Of a stretch of 52,444 bases of DNA, positions 31,173 through 41,126 are shown in pieces. The position numbers were made by a program, and so were the translations under genes. Source of the stretch: an uncultured SAR116 cluster alpha proteobacterium (lineage in GTDB: Bacteria; Pseudomonadota; Alphaproteobacteria; Puniceispirillales; Marisalimonadaceae); the NCBI GenBank assembly GCA_902589185.1, contig CACIRZ010000006.1, positions 1-52,444 of the forward strand, in the 5' to 3' direction. The notes below the pieces were generated by a model. The model was not told the DNA's origin and made no database searches. It saw only the letters and a program-made list of their open reading frames with translations. Every line of letters begins with the position of its first letter. The first letter of the stretch is position 1.

Positions 31173-32540
31173 TTATTTACCAATTTTTATATTATTCTTT
31201 AAAAACCACAAACAAATTAAAGACGGAATTACCATTATTGTGGTTATAATAAAAAAAGTTCCCCAATCTCCATTCAGCCAGTCAACAAGAGCTCCTGAAG
31301 ATGAAGCAAGTGTGGTTCTGCCAGCAGTTCCTAAAGACGCAAGTAAAGCATACTGAGTGGCAGTATATGTTCGATCAACTAACAACGAAATAAAAGCAAC
31401 AAACGCTACAGTTGCAAATGCTGCTGTAATATCATCTGCAATTACAGCAATTGCGAATAATAGTTCAGATTTCCCTGTCCAAGCCAAAACTGCAAAGAGA
31501 AGGTTTGTGATAGCCATTAAACCTCCAGCAAAAAACATTGTTTTTATTGTCCCAGCCCTCATTGCCATTAAACCGCCTAACAATGTAAAAAAAACAGTTG
31601 TTATCCAGCCCAATCCTTTTGAGTAAATTGCAATTTGACTCTTTGAAAATCCAATTTCTTTGTAGAAAACTATTGACATACGTCCAAGAAAAGCTTCACC
31701 GATCTTGAATAAAAAAACAAAACCTAATATTCCAACAGCTATAGCAAACCCATTTTTTTTAAAGAAGCTTATTAATGGACCCAATATAGTCCCTGAAACA
31801 TATGCTAAAATCTTAGTAAAAAAATTATTGGAACCAAGTTTACTTTTTATAATTTTGTCAGTTTCTTTTTGTTTGATTTGTCTATTAGTTTTGACTGGCT
31901 CATTAACAAACATCAAACAAATGTTCATCAAAATTATCATTACTCCTAAAAATAAAAAAGTTAATTGCCAGTAGTCTATAATACCAAGACTTTCAAAATA
32001 TTCTGCTGTAATTAAAGCTACAATACCTCCTAACTTGTAGCCTGTCCACCAACCAACCACAGCCATTGCTGCCCCAGCTGCCATTGCTTTTCCTTCATTT
32101 TCATTTATTTGTTCAATTCTTAAGGCATCAATAGTTATGTCTTGTGTTGCTGAAGCAATAGCAATTACTAATCCAATAAAAATTAAAAGAGCTAAGTTTT
32201 CAGAAGGATTTATCAAACTCCAAATTATCAAACTTAGTAAAATTGTAATTTGCATCAAAAGTATCCATCCTTTTCGATGGCCTAGTTTTTTTAAAAGGGG
32301 AATTTGAATTCTATCAATCAATGGAGCCCATAAATAATTAAATGCGTAAACACCAAAAATTAAACCTGCCCAACCAATCGTTGATCTGCTTAATCCTTCT
32401 TCTTTTAACCAAAGGTTAAGACTACTTGCAATAAGCACCCATGGAAACCCACTAATGGCACCAAGAAGTAAAATTTTCAACATCCTTAAGTCTTTATAAA
32501 CTAAAATTGAATGAAACCAGCTTTGATTTTGTTTTATCAT
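31173..32540 (-). CDS. ampG: AmpG-family muropeptide permease (MFS)
   Basis: A roughly 455-residue MFS protein with at least 12 helices. The N-terminal pattern, GAISGFPWVLIASSLNLWL then WAPLIDRIQIPLL and ATQDITIDALRIEQ, follows AmpG, the inner-membrane importer of GlcNAc-anhydroMurNAc-peptides released during wall turnover. The ATG at 32540 is preferred to an in-frame GTG 15 bases upstream. It is divergent from the YkuD gene across 90 bases. It lies next to several other recycling genes (GH84, anmK, murQ, amidase), which strengthens the call. Confidence 0.85.
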   Translation of the reverse strand: MIKQNQSWFHSILVYKDLRMLKILLLGAISGFPWVLIASSLNLWLKEEGLSRSTIGWAGLIFGVYAFNYLWAPLIDRIQIPLLKKLGHRKGWILLMQITILLSLIIWSLINPSENLALLIFIGLVIAIASATQDITIDALRIEQINENEGKAMAAGAAMAVVGWWTGYKLGGIVALITAEYFESLGIIDYWQLTFLFLGVMIILMNICLMFVNEPVKTNRQIKQKETDKIIKSKLGSNNFFTKILAYVSGTILGPLISFFKKNGFAIAVGILGFVFLFKIGEAFLGRMSIVFYKEIGFSKSQIAIYSKGLGWITTVFFTLLGGLMAMRAGTIKTMFFAGGLMAITNLLFAVLAWTGKSELLFAIAVIADDITAAFATVAFVAFISLLVDRTYTATQYALLASLGTAGRTTLASSSGALVDWLNGDWGTFFIITTIMVIPSLICLWFLKNNIKIGK

Positions 32541-32630
32541 AATTAAATCTACCACATATGTTATAAATCCTACTGTGTTTTTGAATAAAAATATATGTTT
32601 TTGATTTCATCAAAATATCTATAATCAAGT

Positions 32631-33167
32631 ATGATTGAAAATTGGGTAGTTATAAAAGTTAATAAAAAATATTTCTTAAAAGCTCGAAATAAAGTATTTC
32701 AATGTCAAATAGGCCAAGAAGGTCTTGAGAAAGCTGAAAAAAAAATTGAAGGTGATAAAAAAACACCTATCGGGAAATGGTATTTGAAAACTGTTTTTTA
32801 CAGATCTGACAAAATATTAAGACCAAAATTTAAGAAAAAAAATATTTTAAAAATAAAAAAAATCACAAAAAGCTGTGCTTGGTGCGATGATATTCAAAGT
32901 AACTATTACAATAAATATATGAATATTAATAACCTTCAATCTCTAGATATTAATTATGAAAAGTTATGGAGAGAAGATGATGCGTATGACATTTTAATTG
33001 TGATCTCACATAATATTAAGCCAATAATTAAAAATAAAGGAAGTGCAGTTTTTATCCATTGTAGTTTCTCAGATAAAAGAAAAACCGCTGGTTGTATTGC
33101 TTTGAAGAAAAAAGATCTGGCATTTCTGCTTAAAAATCTTCAATACAATACATATATAAAAATTTAA
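32631..33167 (+). CDS. YkuD-domain protein without signal peptide, probable cytoplasmic L,D-carboxypeptidase
   Basis: A 178-residue YkuD-family protein. The catalytic histidine and cysteine are His143 and Cys155 in SAVFIHCSFSDKRKTAGCIA. The protein begins MIENWVVIKVNKKYF, with no signal peptide or membrane helix, so it should stay in the cytoplasm where cross-linking makes no sense. Signal-less YkuD enzymes such as ElsL of Acinetobacter are L,D-carboxypeptidases that remove the terminal D-Ala from recycled tetrapeptides. The location next to ampG fits that role. An alternative is an unrecognised export route and true L,D-transpeptidase activity. Confidence 0.78.
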   Translation: MIENWVVIKVNKKYFLKARNKVFQCQIGQEGLEKAEKKIEGDKKTPIGKWYLKTVFYRSDKILRPKFKKKNILKIKKITKSCAWCDDIQSNYYNKYMNINNLQSLDINYEKLWREDDAYDILIVISHNIKPIIKNKGSAVFIHCSFSDKRKTAGCIALKKKDLAFLLKNLQYNTYIKI

Positions 33168-33251
33168 TTTATTATTTAAGAAACATAAAACTTTACAGAT
33201 TTAATTAATAGATTTAAAAGTAATTTTTTTAATAAATATCGAGGTTTATTC

Positions 33252-35258
33252 ATGCCATATTCATTAGTATCAGTTATTCTTGGCCTTTTGGGACTACTTT
33301 CAGCTTATCTAGTATATTTAAAGGTAAAGTCTTCCTCTGAGGGTGAAGGACGTGTTAAAGAAATTGGAGATGAAATACACCTTGGTGCAATGGTTTTCAT
33401 GTCCGCAGAATATAAGAGATTAGCAGTATTTTGTTTAGTATGCATTTTTGCATTATATTTTTCTCTTGGTTGGCAAACTGCCATATCATTTTTAATTGGA
33501 GCTTTATGTTCAGGTACAGCAGGTTTTATAGGTATGTATTCAGCAACAAAAGCAAATGTAAGAACAGCCGTTGCTGCTAAGGAAAAAGGCGCATCAGAAG
33601 CTCTAAATATAGCCTTTTTTGGAGGCTCAATTATGGGACTAACAGTAGCTGCTATGGGTTTGTTTGGAGTAGGAATTTTATTCCACTACTTTGCAGGTGA
33701 TATAAAAACAATACATGCAATTGAGGGATTTGCGATGGGTGCTTCATCTGTAGCTTTGTTTTCGAGAGTAGGTGGTGGAATATTTACAAAGAGTGCTGAT
33801 GTTGGTGCTGACTTAGTAGGTAAAGTAGAAGCAGGAATTCCAGAAGATGATCCTAGAAATCCAGGTGTAATTGCGGATAATGTAGGAGACAATGTTGGAG
33901 ATGTCGCTGGAATGGGTTCAGATATTTTTGAATCATATTGTGGATCTATGATTGCATGTATAGCTTTAGCTGCATCGATGACTAGTGCGACTATTAATTC
34001 ATTAGGTGGTAACCAATATTTGCTTCAATTTATGCCTTTAGCTTTAGCGTCATTAGGTATAATTTGTTCCTTATTGGGCATATTAACAGTCAAAGCTTTT
34101 TCCTCAAAAAGCGCAGAAACAGCATTAAGATATGGGACGATAGGATCTGCAGTTCTTTTTGTGATATTATCATACTTTTTAGTTGATTTTATGAGTGTTG
34201 CTATCGGTGTTTGGATAGCTGTATTTGTTGGTTCAGTTGGAGGGATAGTTGTTGGATTAATTACAGAATATTATACTGGTGGAAGCCCAGTAGAAAAAAT
34301 AGCTAAGGATGGAGAAACTGGTTCTGCTACTGTTTTAATATCAGGTTTAGCGACCGGAATGCAATCAGTTGCGATACCAGTGTTAACTATAGTATGCATT
34401 ATCTTTATATCAAATATATTTGCAGGTCTTTACGGAGTTGGTATAGCAGCGGTTGGAATGTTAAGTACAGTTGGTATTACAATGGCAATTGATGCATATG
34501 GACCAGTTGCTGACAATGCAGGAGGTATTGCAGAAATGTCAGAGATGGGAAAAGAAACTAGACAAATCACAGATTCATTAGATGAGGTTGGAAACACAAC
34601 TGCTGCGATTGGAAAGGGGTTTGCAATAAGTGCAGCAGCATTGGCAGCATTAGCTCTTATAAGTGCTTATATAGAAAAAATTTCGATTTCAGATGATAGT
34701 TTTGTTTTAGCTATAAATGATCCATTAGTTTTATGTGGAATGTTTTTAGGAGGGATTTTCCCATTTTTAGTTAGTTCTATGACAATGACTGCTGTTGGTG
34801 ACGCAGCTTTCGATATGATCAAGGAAATAAGAAGACAGTTTAAAGAAATTCCAGGCTTGTTGGAGGGTAAAGCAAAACCGGATACTGCAAGATGTGTTGA
34901 TATTGCAACTAGGGCTGCTTTAAGAAAAATGATAGCACCAGGAGCGCTTGCTGTATTATCACCAGTTATTATTGGTTTTACATTAGGTCCAAAAGCTCTT
35001 GGAGGAATGTTAGGTGGTGCACTTATATGTTGTGTAATGATGGCACTAATGATGTCAAATGCAGGTGGAGCATGGGATAATGCAAAAAAGTTTGTAGAAA
35101 AAGGAAACTTTGGAGGTAAAGGATCCGAAGTTCACAAAGCAGCTGTTGTTGGTGATACTGTTGGTGATCCTTTAAAAGATACTTCAGGACCATCAATGAA
35201 CATCTTAATAAATGTGATGGCTATAGTTAGCTTAGTTATAGCGCCACTTTTAGTTTAA
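33252..35258 (+). CDS. hppA: Membrane-bound pyrophosphatase (ion-pumping), potassium-dependent type
   Basis: A 668-residue polytopic pump (about 16 helices) that couples pyrophosphate hydrolysis to ion export. The signature DVGADLVGKVE and the acidic motif DNVGDNVGDVAGMGSD form the substrate site. At the potassium-dependence positions it reads NTTAAIGKG (Ala451, Gly454), the pattern of K+-dependent enzymes; K+-independent ones read NTTKAVTKG. Proton versus sodium specificity cannot be decided by eye. CGAGG precedes the ATG. It is monocistronic, ended by a strong hairpin at 35269-35297. Confidence 0.96.
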   Translation: MPYSLVSVILGLLGLLSAYLVYLKVKSSSEGEGRVKEIGDEIHLGAMVFMSAEYKRLAVFCLVCIFALYFSLGWQTAISFLIGALCSGTAGFIGMYSATKANVRTAVAAKEKGASEALNIAFFGGSIMGLTVAAMGLFGVGILFHYFAGDIKTIHAIEGFAMGASSVALFSRVGGGIFTKSADVGADLVGKVEAGIPEDDPRNPGVIADNVGDNVGDVAGMGSDIFESYCGSMIACIALAASMTSATINSLGGNQYLLQFMPLALASLGIICSLLGILTVKAFSSKSAETALRYGTIGSAVLFVILSYFLVDFMSVAIGVWIAVFVGSVGGIVVGLITEYYTGGSPVEKIAKDGETGSATVLISGLATGMQSVAIPVLTIVCIIFISNIFAGLYGVGIAAVGMLSTVGITMAIDAYGPVADNAGGIAEMSEMGKETRQITDSLDEVGNTTAAIGKGFAISAAALAALALISAYIEKISISDDSFVLAINDPLVLCGMFLGGIFPFLVSSMTMTAVGDAAFDMIKEIRRQFKEIPGLLEGKAKPDTARCVDIATRAALRKMIAPGALAVLSPVIIGFTLGPKALGGMLGGALICCVMMALMMSNAGGAWDNAKKFVEKGNFGGKGSEVHKAAVVGDTVGDPLKDTSGPSMNILINVMAIVSLVIAPLLV

Positions 35259-35268
35259 CAAAAATAAT

Positions 35269-35297
35269 AATAAAGCTATTCTAAGAATAGCTTTATT
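35269..35297. terminator. Bidirectional intrinsic terminator between hppA and mmsB
   Basis: A perfect 13-base-pair stem (35269-35281 with 35285-35297) closes a 3-base TAA loop. Its core is AAAGCTATTC/GAATAGCTTT, flanked by A-rich sequence on the left and T-rich on the right, so it can terminate both hppA (rightward) and mmsB (leftward). The right arm contains the mmsB stop codon (35293-35295). Confidence 0.85.
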
Positions 35298-36165
35298 TAT
35301 TAAATTTTGTGATAGCTGAAAAGTCTAAATTACCATAGTTTTCATTAACCATTTTTTGAAAATTTTCACGTGCTTTAATTCCGAATTTCGCTTTCGTATT
35401 TGTAACTTGTATTGCTTTTAAGGCTATAGTAAGGTCTTTTAACATTAAATCTGCTGAAAAACCGGGCTTAAAGTCATTGTCTGCTGGACTTATAGGCCCA
35501 ACATCTTTAATAGGACAATAGCTATTTATAGCCCAACATGAACCAGTCGAAGTTGACAAAATTTCAAATAATTTTTCTAGATCTAAACCTAAATTATTAC
35601 CTAGTGAAAAAGCTTCTCCTACGCCAATCATGGTAGTTGCCAACAACATATTATTACATGCTTTTGTAGCTTGTCCTGAACCAGAAGAACCACATAATAA
35701 TGATTTTTTCCCCATTATTTCAAACAAGGGCAACATTTTTTTATAAGCATCCTCTTTGCCGCCAACCATAAAAGTTAATGTTGCATTCTCGGCTCCACCA
35801 ATTCCTCCAGATACTGGTGCATCAAGAAAAAAAAGTTCTTTATCTTCACATTTTTTGTGTAATTTTTTTGCTTTATCAACGTCAATAGTAGAGCAGTCTG
35901 TTATCAATGTGCCTGGCTTTAAACTATCTATAATACTATCCAATACTTCCTCAACAATTTCTCCATTAGGTAACATTGTGATTATTATATCTACGTCTTT
36001 TGAGATATCTTTTAAATTGGAGACTTTTTTAAGTCCTATTGGCAAAAGTTGTTTCACAAACTCCTCATTAATATCATAACCAATAACTTCGTAATTAGTA
36101 TTCAGAAGATTTGTTACCATTCTGGCTCCCATATTTCCTAAGCCAATAAAACCAATTTTTTTCAT
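35293..36165 (-). CDS. mmsB: 3-hydroxyisobutyrate dehydrogenase
   Basis: A 290-residue beta-hydroxyacid dehydrogenase. It has the N-terminal NAD motif GFIGLGNMGARM, the substrate loop DAPVSGGIGGAENATL and the catalytic Lys168 in KACNNMLLA. The C-terminal stretch TGSCWAINSYCPIKD and GFSADLMLKDLTIAL follows MmsB of valine degradation more closely than tartronate-semialdehyde reductase. Its ATG overlaps the GH84 stop by 4 bases, and a strong AAGGAG lies inside the GH84 end, so the two are translationally coupled. No other valine-pathway gene is adjacent except possibly the acyl-CoA dehydrogenase far upstream. Confidence 0.88.
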   Translation of the reverse strand: MKKIGFIGLGNMGARMVTNLLNTNYEVIGYDINEEFVKQLLPIGLKKVSNLKDISKDVDIIITMLPNGEIVEEVLDSIIDSLKPGTLITDCSTIDVDKAKKLHKKCEDKELFFLDAPVSGGIGGAENATLTFMVGGKEDAYKKMLPLFEIMGKKSLLCGSSGSGQATKACNNMLLATTMIGVGEAFSLGNNLGLDLEKLFEILSTSTGSCWAINSYCPIKDVGPISPADNDFKPGFSADLMLKDLTIALKAIQVTNTKAKFGIKARENFQKMVNENYGNLDFSAITKFNK

Positions 36166-37316
36166 TTCAATTCTCCTTTTAATAAAAATTCAGATAGAGG
36201 AGCGGTTTGAGTTTTAATCTTGCGCTCCGACGTTAGAAGTTTTTGACTGATTTGTAAATCTTGCTTTAACCCAAAAATGAAGGGATACCATTCTCTTGAT
36301 AAATTACCTTTCCATTTCCACAAAAGGAAATCTAACGCTTCAAAATCTGTATAATTAAAATTTACTTTTTGGGCCGGAGGGTTAGAACCAAAATCTGGTT
36401 TTAAAAAAAATTTTTTTATTTTTATGAACTCTTTTGGGACACCGTGAATGTTCATTACTTTTAACCATTCATTTAAATTATTCTTACCCCTGAAATTATT
36501 GGAGCAAATGTCCAAAATCAGAAGATCTGTTTCTATTAGACCTGTAAGATTAATCATTACATCATTAATGTTTTGTCTTCCAAAGTAAGGTCCTACAAAC
36601 ATACGTCTAGGACAATAGTCATTTGAATAGTAATTATCCCAAAAGATTACCCTGTTTAGTAATGTTTTTTTAATCATTTTATAATTTGATAAATTTTTAG
36701 AAACAACATTTTTGCCACAATAGAAAACAGTTATTTTTGGGTCCAATATCTTACTTAAGTCTTTTAAATAAAAAGGTTCATCTTGAATTAATTCATCAGC
36801 GTATATTCTAGGTATAAAGAAAATATTTTGTCTTAATTCTTTTGAAAGCTTGTTCGCCAAAATAGCATGATATGTTCCTTCGGATACATCAACTCCAAAT
36901 TTTTTTTTAAAATCATTCGGAATGTCATCTAACATCAAAGCTATATAATCAGCTCCATCTTGAAGTAACTGTTTAGCTTTTCTTAATAGTAATTTGAAAT
37001 CAGATTTTTTATTATTTCTAGAAATATTATCTAATTCTTTAAAATTAAAGTCTAATCCTGGAGCAATACCAGCTATAACGTTTATGTTATTCTCTTGACA
37101 AAATTGAGTAAAATTTTGGAATTTCAAACGCCATTTTTTATTATATTTTTCTTTCCAGTGTAATCGATGAAAAACATCTTCCTTAGGAGCGTAGAAATAA
37201 GTATTCATATTATTTTTACGCAGTGATTTGATTATAAGCTCTCTACTTTCCCAAGATAATAGTCTGCCATAATAACCCTCTATATATCCAATTATGTTAT
37301 TTTCATTGTATTTCAT
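36162..37316 (-). CDS. GH84 beta-N-acetylglucosaminidase (O-GlcNAcase-like catalytic domain)
   Basis: A 384-residue protein whose N-terminal roughly 260 residues form the GH84 TIM barrel. Visible marks are GYIEGYYGRLLSWESR at the start (strand 1), NTYFYAPKEDVFHR (40s), the catalytic Asp130-Asp131 pair in ALMLDDIP, WDNYYSNDY and FVGPYFGR. GH84 enzymes cleave terminal beta-GlcNAc by substrate-assisted catalysis. No signal peptide is present, so it should act in the cytoplasm. Between anmK/murQ/ampG-type genes the likely substrate is GlcNAc-anhydroMurNAc (or its peptides), the job of NagZ (GH3) elsewhere; this is inference. It is divergent from the PIG-L gene across 56 bases and coupled to mmsB downstream. 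Confidence 0.87.
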   Translation of the reverse strand: MKYNENNIIGYIEGYYGRLLSWESRELIIKSLRKNNMNTYFYAPKEDVFHRLHWKEKYNKKWRLKFQNFTQFCQENNINVIAGIAPGLDFNFKELDNISRNNKKSDFKLLLRKAKQLLQDGADYIALMLDDIPNDFKKKFGVDVSEGTYHAILANKLSKELRQNIFFIPRIYADELIQDEPFYLKDLSKILDPKITVFYCGKNVVSKNLSNYKMIKKTLLNRVIFWDNYYSNDYCPRRMFVGPYFGRQNINDVMINLTGLIETDLLILDICSNNFRGKNNLNEWLKVMNIHGVPKEFIKIKKFFLKPDFGSNPPAQKVNFNYTDFEALDFLLWKWKGNLSREWYPFIFGLKQDLQISQKLLTSERKIKTQTAPLSEFLLKGELK

Positions 37317-37372
37317 TTGATATCTTTTTTAATATTGCAATACTATATTAACTAAATTAGGAGAAAAATATA

Positions 37373-38062
37373 ATGAAAGTTTTGGCAATAGGCGCACATC
37401 CTGATGATATTGAAATTTTTATGTATGGTATACTTTCTATTTATAAAAAAAAAGGAAATAAGGTATATGCCATGATTGCAACAGATGGAGCTAAAGGAGG
37501 TGCTCAAAAAGGTTTAGTCTTAGCAAAGAAAAGAGCTAAGGAAACTATTGAAGGCCTTAAAAAGTTATCTTCACCAATTTTCTTGAATATACCTGATGGT
37601 AATTTAGGAGAGGATCCTGAGCATCGAAAAATTATCAAAGAAAATATTTTAAAAATAATGCCTGATTTAATTATTACTCATTCACAAAATGATTATCATT
37701 CAGACCACAAATCATTATCTTTAATAACAAAAGAGGCAGTTAGTCATTATATACCAATTTTAAATTGTGATACATTAATGGGTATAAACTTTAATCCTAA
37801 TTATTATGTTGATATAACAGATCACTATTTGGAAAAAAAAGATGCTATACTCAAACACAAAACACAAAATCCTCAAAGATTTATAGATCTATTCAAATTA
37901 ATGAATTCTTATAGGGCAGCTCAATGCAACGCTCCTAAAGGTCATTATGCAGAAGCGTATAGTTTTACACCTTCGTTTCCTTTTGCAGATATAAGAGAAA
38001 TTTTACCATCTGCTTTAAAATTAAGACCTTTTCATATAGAGGACCAACTTGGTTTTTTATAG
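37373..38062 (+). CDS. PIG-L family N-acetylglucosaminyl deacetylase
   Basis: A 229-residue LmbE/PIG-L zinc hydrolase. The metal ligands are seen as His9 and Asp12 in GAHPDD and His112 in YHSDHKS. Family members remove acetyl groups from GlcNAc-containing molecules (PIG-L, MshB, BshB). No bacillithiol or mycothiol genes are near. Next to the GH84 gene it may deacetylate GlcNAc or a muropeptide sugar; this is inference. AGGAG lies 9 bases before the ATG. A weak promoter (TTGATA 37317-37322, 18 bases, TACTAT 37341-37346) precedes it. Its 3' end overlaps anmK by 6 bases. Confidence 0.87.
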   Translation: MKVLAIGAHPDDIEIFMYGILSIYKKKGNKVYAMIATDGAKGGAQKGLVLAKKRAKETIEGLKKLSSPIFLNIPDGNLGEDPEHRKIIKENILKIMPDLIITHSQNDYHSDHKSLSLITKEAVSHYIPILNCDTLMGINFNPNYYVDITDHYLEKKDAILKHKTQNPQRFIDLFKLMNSYRAAQCNAPKGHYAEAYSFTPSFPFADIREILPSALKLRPFHIEDQLGFL

Positions 38063-39147
38063 ATATTTAAACAACTTTCCTCCTGACAAAGGATTAAGCA
38101 CTCCAGTTGTAGAAGGAAAAGTGAATGGAAGCTTGTAAATTGACCTTGCTGACAAATAAGCAATAAGTTCTGCTTCTATATAATCAAAATTAATACCAAG
38201 TTGTTTTTCATTATAAACTTTTAATTTTAGGCTATCTTTCAAACGTTTTATTAAATGAAGGTTTCTGGAACCTCCTCCAGTTATAATTATACTTTTAACT
38301 TTTTTTGGTAAAAGTTGAAAGCTAGTGACAATAGTCTCAACAGTAAACTCAGCCAAGGTCGCCATAGTATCATGAACAGAAAATTGTTTTTTAATTAATT
38401 CATTGTACTGTGGGCTAAACCCGTTTCTATCAAGAGATTTTGGAGGAGTTATTTTAAAAAAATCATGTTTTAAAAATTTTTCTATTTCAGATTTTATTGG
38501 ATTTCCTTTAGAAGCAAAATTACCATTTTTATCAAAATTTTTGTTGAATATATTAAGCATATAATCATCCATTAGTGCATTTCCTGGTCCTGTATCAAAT
38601 CCTATTAATTCATTCCCATCCCAGTATGTTAAGTTAGAAACACCACCAATGTTTATGATGCAAGATGGAAGTTCGAGTTTAAGCTCATTAATAATAAATT
38701 TATGATAAATAGGAGCTAATGGTGCACCTTGGCCTCCAGATGCAATATCGTTTGATCTGAAATTAAAAACAATATCCTTATTGAGTAATTTTGCTAATTT
38801 CTCTGGATCACCTAATTGAATTGAAACTCTTTTTTTAGGGTTATGGTATATTGTTTGACCGTGAAATCCAATTAAATCACAGTTTTGAACAATATCCAAA
38901 TCTTTTAAAGCTGCGTAATGTTCTTTTGTTATAAATTCGTCTAAAAAACTTTTTTTTTTAAATGGATATTTATATCTTTTTTCAATATATCGTCTAAAAA
39001 TTTTTTTGTGTCAGGGCTATATTTGTAATAGAAATTTTTATTTAATCTTATTAAATCTGTACCATTAGTCCTAACTAGACTAATGTCAATTCCATCCATA
39101 CTGGTACCAGTCATTAAGCCGATGATGTTTAAGAAAGGATAATGCAA
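38057..39147 (-). pseudogene. anmK: Anhydro-N-acetylmuramic acid kinase, interrupted by a frameshift
   Basis: AnmK phosphorylates and opens 1,6-anhydroMurNAc to MurNAc-6-phosphate for MurQ. The 5' part (39147 to 38941, TTG start after AAAGG) carries GLMTGTSMDGIDISL. It then ends at a TAG just after a run of ten A on the coding strand (plus-strand T run 38950-38959). The next frame continues without a break as SFLDEFITKEHYAALKDLD and DLIGFHGQT, NIGGVSNLTYWDG, GFDTGPGNALMDD and TGGGSRN to the stop at 38057. Joined, the length (about 363) is right for AnmK. One extra A, or a -1 shift on the A run, restores the frame. It may be a real mutation, a sequencing error, or a gene rescued by slippage. 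Confidence 0.85.
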
Positions 39148-39189
39148 AATTAATTTTTACCTTTTTAATTTAATTATATAATATCAAAT

Positions 39190-39936
39190 ATGTCTAAAAA
39201 TACACCTAAAACTGAACTTTTATATCTGAAAAGTAAACCAATTGATCATTTAAGTCTTACTGATGGAATATCTCTCATGATCAAAGAGCAAAAAAATGCC
39301 GCTTTAGAGGTGAAGAGATCAATAAAATCAATAGAACATACAATAGAAGCTATTTATAAACATTTAACCTTAAACTCAAAAGGTAGACTAATATATGTAG
39401 GAGCTGGAACCTCAGCCAGAATAGGTGTACAAGATGGGGTTGAGTTATTTCCAACATTTAATTGGCCAAAGGAGCGTTTAGATTTTATTATCGCTGGTGG
39501 GATCAATGCTTTATTAAATGCAATTGAAAATGCCGAAGATAATAAATATTCAGCTGAAAAAATTGTAGAAGATAAAATGGTTTTTCACGAAGATGTTGTA
39601 ATTGGTCTTGCCGCTAGTGGTAACACTCCTTTTACATGTAAAGTTTTGGAAAAAGCTCAAAATCGAAACGCTCTTACTATTGCAATTAGTAATAACCCTA
39701 ATGGTGAAATTCTAAAATATGGTGATCATAAAATTGTTCTTAATACAAAAGCAGAGGTTATAGCGGGCTCTACTAGACTTAAGGCAGGGACAGCTCAAAA
39801 AATATGCCTTAATGTAATTTCTTCTATGGTAATGGTTAAATTGGGAAGGGTAAAAAATGGAGTGATGAATGAAATGGTGCCAACAAATGAAAAACTAAGA
39901 ATTAGGAAAAAAAAATTAATTAATTTCATTAATTAA
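39190..39936 (+). CDS. murQ: N-acetylmuramic acid 6-phosphate etherase, short C-terminus
   Basis: MurQ cleaves the lactyl ether of MurNAc-6-phosphate to give GlcNAc-6-phosphate and lactate. The SIS domain shows VGAGTSARIGVQDGVELFPT (catalytic glutamate region), ALLNAIENAEDN (second acidic site), ASGNTPF and AGSTRLKAGTAQKICLN. At 248 residues it lacks about 50 residues of the helical C-terminal domain of typical MurQ (about 300). It stops shortly after MVPTNEKLRIR, following a 9-A run. All three frames stop at once after that run, so this is not a simple frameshift. It is divergent from anmK (42 bases) and converges on the NlpC gene with 8 overlapping bases. Confidence 0.9.
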   Translation: MSKNTPKTELLYLKSKPIDHLSLTDGISLMIKEQKNAALEVKRSIKSIEHTIEAIYKHLTLNSKGRLIYVGAGTSARIGVQDGVELFPTFNWPKERLDFIIAGGINALLNAIENAEDNKYSAEKIVEDKMVFHEDVVIGLAASGNTPFTCKVLEKAQNRNALTIAISNNPNGEILKYGDHKIVLNTKAEVIAGSTRLKAGTAQKICLNVISSMVMVKLGRVKNGVMNEMVPTNEKLRIRKKKLINFIN

Positions 39937-40684
39937 AATTCATAATTCTTATTATTGGATGTCTCTTACTAGTTCGTTCTAAAATATTTAATAATGGCTC
40001 TCTTGATACCTCCATATGAAAAGCATTTGCATGAATACAATGGGTGTCATCTACCATAATTCCAACATGTCCCTCCCAAAAAACAACATACCCTCTTTTC
40101 AGTTTTTCTTTTTTGTTAATTATTTCTTTATTAAGTAATGACTGATCTATTGAGTTCCGGGGGATATTCTCACCATAAGTTTGGTATGATAACTGTAAAA
40201 GCGCAGAGCAATCTAAACCTATAGAGTTTCTTCCACCCCAAACATAAGGAGTTCCTATTAATTTTTCTGCTATGCTTACCCAATCATCAATTTTTTCTTC
40301 GTTTTTAATTATATGTTTACTTGGTATGTAAGCAAATTTCTGACTTGAATTTTTTCCAAGATAAACTTGAGCCCAGAAATCGTCAAAATCGTTTACATAA
40401 ATTTGTGAGCCTAACGGTAAGTAATTGATGCATCCTGATTTAATATCATTGTCTTTAAATAAATATGATCTATTAGAAACCACTCTATGTGACGATTTTA
40501 TTATTTCACCTAAATATTCTTTATTTACCCAACCACAATAATTATCAGTCAAAAGTTTGCAAAAATACCAATCTAGGTTCTTATCTATGATAGTTAATGT
40601 TTCTCCAAATAAACACTCGGTTTCAAGGCTGGATGATGCTTTTGCTTTTGATCTCATTGGAATAGATGGGGCAATTACATTCAT
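39929..40684 (-). CDS. SH3b plus NlpC/P60 peptidase (YkfC-like)
   Basis: A 251-residue cysteine peptidase. Two bacterial SH3-like segments (about residues 8-60 and 70-125) precede the NlpC/P60 domain, with the triad Cys159 (GLDCSALLQLSY), His206 (EGHVGIM) and His218 (HCIHAN). The layout and spacing follow YkfC, which cuts the D-Glu to diaminopimelate bond of L-Ala-D-Glu peptides. No signal peptide is seen, so cytoplasmic action on recycled peptides is likely. The start overlaps the stop of the amidase gene by 4 bases, so the pair is one operon. Confidence 0.86.
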   Translation of the reverse strand: MNVIAPSIPMRSKAKASSSLETECLFGETLTIIDKNLDWYFCKLLTDNYCGWVNKEYLGEIIKSSHRVVSNRSYLFKDNDIKSGCINYLPLGSQIYVNDFDDFWAQVYLGKNSSQKFAYIPSKHIIKNEEKIDDWVSIAEKLIGTPYVWGGRNSIGLDCSALLQLSYQTYGENIPRNSIDQSLLNKEIINKKEKLKRGYVVFWEGHVGIMVDDTHCIHANAFHMEVSREPLLNILERTSKRHPIIRIMNFN

Positions 40685-41085
40685 AAATTCTTATCTCTAC
40701 ACCACATTTGAACATTAAAATTAGGACATGTTTTTTCTGTTTTACCTGTATCACAATGTCCAATAATTTTTGCATTAGAGTATGTAGCTTTCCATGTTTT
40801 CAAAACTTTTTCGAGAGAAGTGTACTGTTGATCTGTAAAATGATCCCTTCCTATGAGGCAAACACCTAAACTAATATCGTTTTTCCCTTGAACATGAGCT
40901 CCAACCCAATACTCGGGTCTACCATTTTCTATTTTTCCAGATCTACATATTATTTTATGGTAACCTATCCCATCCCAACCAAATTTAAGATGCATTTTAT
41001 GAATATCTAAAGCGGTTAATTCTTTTCTATTGTCTGTGTCAGAGCAGTGAACAACTAATAATTTTATATTTTTTCTTATAAGCAT
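40681..41085 (-). CDS. N-acetylmuramoyl-L-alanine amidase (Amidase_2/PGRP fold, T7-lysozyme-like)
   Basis: A roughly 134-residue zinc amidase, very close in size and pattern to bacteriophage T7 lysozyme. Candidate ligands are His13 (LLVVHCSDT), His110 (IIGHCDT) and Cys120 (KTCPNF), with Tyr42 (GIGYHKII) and Lys118 at the catalytic positions. There is no signal peptide. It could replace AmpD by removing peptides from anhydroMurNAc in the cytoplasm. The ATG at 41085 is preferred over a TTG directly upstream. It is first in a two-gene operon with the NlpC/P60 peptidase, behind its own promoter at 41127-41156. A prophage remnant is an alternative, but no other phage gene is near. Confidence 0.85.
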   Translation of the reverse strand: MLIRKNIKLLVVHCSDTDNRKELTALDIHKMHLKFGWDGIGYHKIICRSGKIENGRPEYWVGAHVQGKNDISLGVCLIGRDHFTDQQYTSLEKVLKTWKATYSNAKIIGHCDTGKTEKTCPNFNVQMWCRDKNL

Positions 41086-41126
41086 CAATAAGCTTTTAAA
41101 TTAAGTGTTATATAATTTACAATTAG

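Follow-up and report, generated by a model that had tools for sequence, protein, structure and literature searches.

In bacteria, the sugar-cutting step of cell-wall recycling is usually carried out by NagZ, a GH3 enzyme that works through a covalent glycosyl-enzyme intermediate. Its contribution to beta-lactamase induction has made NagZ a subject of drug-target studies, and it is therefore of practical note if an unrelated enzyme cuts the same bond. Enzymes of the GH84 family, which use substrate-assisted catalysis with two aspartates, are known for removing O-GlcNAc from proteins. The replacement of single recycling components has been described before: the unrelated leaderless enzyme ElsL of Acinetobacter baumannii, which was tested experimentally, replaces LdcA (PMC8649774), and in Agrobacterium YejBEF-YepA takes the place of AmpG, while NagZ and AmpD are kept (PMC9790009). 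A cytoplasmic bacterial GH84 enzyme with O-GlcNAcase (OGA) activity is likewise known (PMC4683255). Among the open-licence literature, we found no paper proposing GH84 for peptidoglycan recycling or for the role of NagZ.

We analysed a stretch of 52,444 nucleotides (the window) from a genome of SAR116 (Puniceispirillales), a group of abundant marine bacteria. The window contains a cytoplasmic muropeptide-salvage cluster of approximately 10 kb (31173-41088; Table 1), from which, together with searches of related genomes, we conclude that a cytoplasmic GH84 exo-beta-N-acetylglucosaminidase has very probably displaced GH3 NagZ in SAR116 muropeptide recycling; the support is genomic. The same GH84 takeover of the NagZ step appears, as judged from sequence, to have occurred in some gammaproteobacteria.

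Table 1. Features of the muropeptide-salvage cluster, with positions in the window.
Feature	Coordinates	Strand	Remarks
AmpG-family muropeptide permease	31173..32555	-	TIGR00901 368 bits, cut-off 350
YkuD-domain protein, leaderless	32631..33167	+	PF03734 5.7e-10; N-terminus hydrophilic; adjoins AmpG
3-hydroxyisobutyrate dehydrogenase	35293..36165	-	TIGR01692 331 bits, cut-off 291.6
GH84 beta-N-acetylglucosaminidase	36162..37316	-	leaderless; TIM barrel and C-terminal helical domain; proposed NagZ substitute
PIG-L/LmbE-family deacetylase	37373..38062	+	PF02585 3.3e-23; divergent from GH84
AnmK, anhydroMurNAc kinase	38057..39156	-	PF03702 1.4e-63; pieces 38057-39010 and 38941-39156
MurQ, MurNAc-6-phosphate etherase	39190..39936	+	NF003915 277 bits, cut-off 168
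NlpC/P60 peptidase with SH3 domain, YkfC-like	39929..40684	-	PF00877 2e-16 and PF18348
Amidase_2, T7-lysozyme-type	40681..41088	-	PF01510 2.5e-14

A preliminary description of the window had placed the GH84 gene among AmpG, AnmK, MurQ and an AmpD-like amidase. The first three neighbors were recovered, AmpG above the cut-off of its model and AnmK and MurQ clearly, with the qualification that AnmK is split in this assembly: a six-frame reading shows a frameshift at a run of ten T near 38951-38960, with the two pieces spanning the full AnmK. Because AnmK is intact in relatives, the break is likely an assembly or sequencing error. MurQ is short, naturally so in the genus of the window genome, as close relatives encode proteins of 247-250 aa. 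The fourth neighbor is an amidase, as described, but its likeness to AmpD did not hold, since it reaches only 31 bits against the AmpD equivalog threshold of 143 and its nearest solved structure is T7 lysozyme (1.8e-20); it is a probable N-acetylmuramoyl-L-alanine amidase in AmpD's place. The nearest solved structures of the NlpC/P60 protein are 3h41 and dipeptidyl-peptidase VI, which makes a gamma-D-Glu-mDAP endopeptidase probable; at two related loci (L048:3877-5058 and L070:2801-4105) the T7-type amidase and NlpC/P60 are fused in one protein. By analogy, the YkuD protein is a candidate ElsL-type cytoplasmic L,D-carboxypeptidase; this likeness rests on its Pfam match, the absence of a leader and the gene context, because a PDB sequence search with the protein returned no significant match. 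An H+-pyrophosphatase and a 3-hydroxyisobutyrate dehydrogenase also lie within the cluster. The dehydrogenase gene overlaps the GH84 stop by ATGA and occurs in only part of SAR116; it is probably an unrelated passenger.

The GH84 gene encodes a protein of 384 aa whose sole profile match is PF07555 (2.4e-47; 162 bits, cut-off 25), covering the catalytic barrel (residues 10-249), with no match to the GH3 domain PF00933. To judge from these profiles, the protein is no NagZ by descent, and we propose its likeness to NagZ only in the way it works. Beside D130-D131, it contains the motifs WDNYYSNDY and FVGPYFGR; D130, D131, K45, W226, N228 and D233 are invariant across 41 homologs, with N256 also counted invariant and D227 nearly so. 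With a hydrophilic N-terminus and the first barrel strand (GYIEGYYG) starting as early as residue 10, the protein has no signal peptide. Both properties, the complete GH84 motifs and the missing signal peptide, had been noted in the preliminary description and are confirmed here. Among solved structures, it is closest to human O-GlcNAcase and to OgOGA from Oceanicola granulosus. An AlphaFold2 model of the protein (mean pLDDT 89.7) matches OgOGA with a Z-score of 34.8 and human OGA with a Z-score of 37, the latter over residues 5-377 (355 residues aligned), indicating that the helical bundle is also present.

No member of GH3, the NagZ family, is found in the window, as first noted from its letters, or in the whole assembly of 1.47 Mb; because that assembly is 62% complete, this lack by itself says little. 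The absence extends to the 60 relatives from the order: genome searches found GH3 in 0 of 61 Puniceispirillales genomes (23 near-complete, many of the others incomplete), and GH20 is likewise missing from all 61. GH3 is present in 230 of the 269 genomes sampled across the Alphaproteobacteria, and the model matches 10 of 14 controls. The difference between order and class in the near-complete sets corresponds to a Fisher p of approximately 2e-18, with genomes treated as independent. Since most genomes at the genus level are incomplete, the shared absences are partly due to missing contigs. Four other alphaproteobacteria in the class sample carry a GH84, of the distant OgOGA type, and GH3 is kept in all four.

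Within the order, GH84 is found in 43 and AnmK in 42 of the 61 genomes, and the two are distributed together: 41 genomes have both, 17 have neither and three are discordant (Fisher p of approximately 5e-12, kinship ignored). Among the 23 near-complete genomes, 19 have both, one has GH84 only and three have neither (p 0.002, kinship again ignored). In the discordant genomes G018 and G052, GH84 is a partial match or lies on a 4.9-kb contig. One genome with neither GH84 nor GH3 (G041) encodes NagA and, adjoining AnmK, a beta-lactamase-fold protein (L173:4077-6204). Two of the checks that the preliminary description had suggested on its reading of GH84 as a stand-in for NagZ were a search for nagZ beyond the window and a survey of co-occurrence with recycling genes; the former leaves the reading unrefuted and the latter agrees with it.

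A scan of genome contigs yielded 80 GH84 loci, 47 from SAR116 and the Granulosicoccaceae, a gammaproteobacterial family, and 33 from other lineages. AmpG, AnmK or MurQ lies within the fetched flank of GH84 at 42 of the 47, and at the remaining five the contig ends less than 0.9 kb upstream; in the same scan, none of these genes was found near GH84 at the 33 other loci (Fibrobacterota, SAR86, Verrucomicrobiota and others). Gene order around GH84 differs between SAR116 and the Granulosicoccaceae, where GH84 is divergent to AmpG or follows directly after AnmK and PIG-L is absent; AmpG, AnmK and MurQ in these clusters were confirmed by curated models. In a tree of 85 sequences, SAR116 and the Granulosicoccaceae form one supported group, with the OgOGA type far off. 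The Granulosicoccaceae fall inside the range of SAR116. The gene has thus likely been transferred between the two lineages, which are not wholly independent of each other. Among the 11 Granulosicoccaceae genomes carrying GH84, none has a GH3 over the NagZ cut-off: seven have no GH3, three a predicted lipoprotein below the cut-off and one an 806-aa glycosidase. We rejected these proteins as real NagZs, the former for their predicted lipid anchor and low scores and the latter as a xylosidase/glucosidase type; the presence of NagZ-like GH3 lipoproteins in 3 of 11 genomes nevertheless counts against a NagZ substitute. Taken with the 0 of 61 GH3 count and the co-occurrence with AnmK, the recurrence of this context in a second class supports the genomic side of the proposal in the preliminary description.

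Further GH84 loci differ in their surroundings. A gene for an M19 dipeptidase stands beside GH84, often as the next gene, in many relatives. At one locus (L029:1429-3483) GH84 is fused in frame to an M19 domain without its first 70 profile positions; we do not take this fusion as evidence of joint function, as M19 begins at profile position 72 and the fusion may be the product of a deletion or of assembly. The Fibrobacterota (L078-L084) have a related GH84; AnmK and GH3 are both missing from those of their genomes that were searched. In SAR86 (L085-L103), GH84 falls into two tree groups and belongs to a conserved operon with prfA, prmC and a ThiF-like gene (names assigned by eye). A search of 16 SAR86 genomes recovered AnmK from 14, mostly outside the GH84 operon. 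Candidate NagZs among the SAR86 GH3 proteins inspected were discarded, being long, secreted or glucosidase-like, with those fully read exceeding 600 aa. This suggests that SAR86 is a further lineage using GH84 in recycling, although the genes are not linked there.

The substrate and order of steps that we infer are as follows. AmpG would bring in GlcNAc-anhydroMurNAc, with or without its peptide, and the T7-type amidase would take off the peptide. GH84 would release GlcNAc from GlcNAc-anhydroMurNAc, whether or not the peptide is still attached, presumably by substrate-assisted catalysis with D130 and D131 through an oxazoline intermediate. AnmK would then form MurNAc-6-P, which MurQ would convert to GlcNAc-6-P. 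By analogy, the YkuD, NlpC/P60 and M19 proteins may handle the peptide steps.

Known GH84 substrates are O-GlcNAc proteins or extracellular glycans, which counts against a role in place of NagZ. As an alternative, the SAR116 protein might be a bacterial O-GlcNAcase that takes O-GlcNAc off proteins in the cytoplasm, the role suggested for TtOGA of Thermobaculum terrenum, with its place in the cluster accidental. Its fold and active site are indeed of the OGA type, and OGA activity has a precedent in a bacterial GH84 that likewise has no leader (PMC4683255). We nevertheless consider this explanation highly improbable: the linkage to recycling genes is kept across differing gene orders in two classes, GH84 is present or absent together with AnmK, and an O-GlcNAcase would leave no GH3 or GH20 exo-glucosaminidase for the recycling step.

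GH84 pockets chiefly bind the GlcNAc unit, and the aglycone can therefore not be read from the sequence; GH84 might belong to the cluster and yet cut a different GlcNAc-containing import, for instance chitobiose or a GlcNAc-MurNAc lacking the anhydro end, with anhydromuropeptides handled otherwise. The resemblance of the PIG-L protein to a diacetylchitobiose deacetylase would fit such a substrate, but AmpG and AnmK mark the anhydromuropeptide route, and AnmK, with which GH84 co-occurs, requires prior removal of GlcNAc, making this explanation improbable. There is a very slight chance that NagZ was simply missed and that a very distant GH3, or an enzyme of some other family, performs the step; many genomes are incomplete and the glucosaminidase families covered besides GH84 were GH3 and GH20, but the same GH3 model that matches the controls and most of the class finds 0 of 23 in the near-complete members of the order. 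The replacement of NagZ by GH84 accounts for these observations as a non-orthologous replacement within a known recycling pathway, and as such is well supported by genomics.

A second replacement may concern NagA. The PIG-L protein, whose nearest solved structure is a diacetylchitobiose deacetylase (8bgn, 1.2e-10), is a candidate GlcNAc or GlcNAc-6-P deacetylase and lies beside AnmK and GH84 in most SAR116. NagA exceeds its cut-off in only 6 of the 61 order genomes, and the cluster PIG-L is found in most of the others. Among near-complete genomes, NagA occurs in 0 of 14 with PIG-L and 2 of 6 without it, a statistically weak difference (p 0.08). One cluster without PIG-L (G051) has NagA adjoining AnmK, and neither protein appears to be present in two genomes (G037 and G043). 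The cluster PIG-L is a candidate NagA substitute. A wider reading, to which we give slightly less than even confidence, is that unrelated enzymes have taken over almost all of SAR116 recycling apart from a core of AmpG, AnmK and MurQ, with GH84 for NagZ, PIG-L for NagA, the leaderless YkuD protein for LdcA, the T7-lysozyme-type amidase for AmpD, and NlpC/P60 and M19 acting on the peptide, and that SAR86, with GH84 in another operon, AnmK and no NagZ-sized GH3, is a further lineage with the GH84 exchange.

If the replacement is correct, a group of bacterial GH84 enzymes has a housekeeping role in cell-wall recycling, and annotation that looks for NagZ only wrongly reports the step as missing from SAR116, from some Granulosicoccaceae and probably from SAR86. 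The SAR116 enzyme would share with NagZ its reaction, cytoplasmic location and partners (AmpG, an amidase, AnmK and MurQ), but it belongs to an unrelated family, GH84 rather than GH3. With human OGA, OgOGA and TtOGA it shares the whole fold, the catalytic aspartate pair and the pocket residues; it differs from these O-GlcNAcases in identity, which is only ~22-27% in structural alignment, in its distance in the tree from the OgOGA-type alphaproteobacterial enzymes, and in its peptidoglycan-recycling gene context. ElsL offers a precedent for the replacement of a recycling enzyme, and a leaderless YkuD protein is also found in the SAR116 cluster, although ElsL replaces LdcA, not NagZ, and was characterized by experiment, while the function of the SAR116 YkuD protein is predicted. 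YejBEF-YepA is an alphaproteobacterial precedent for the exchange of a recycling component, with the parts reversed: SAR116 keeps AmpG, and it is NagZ that is gone.
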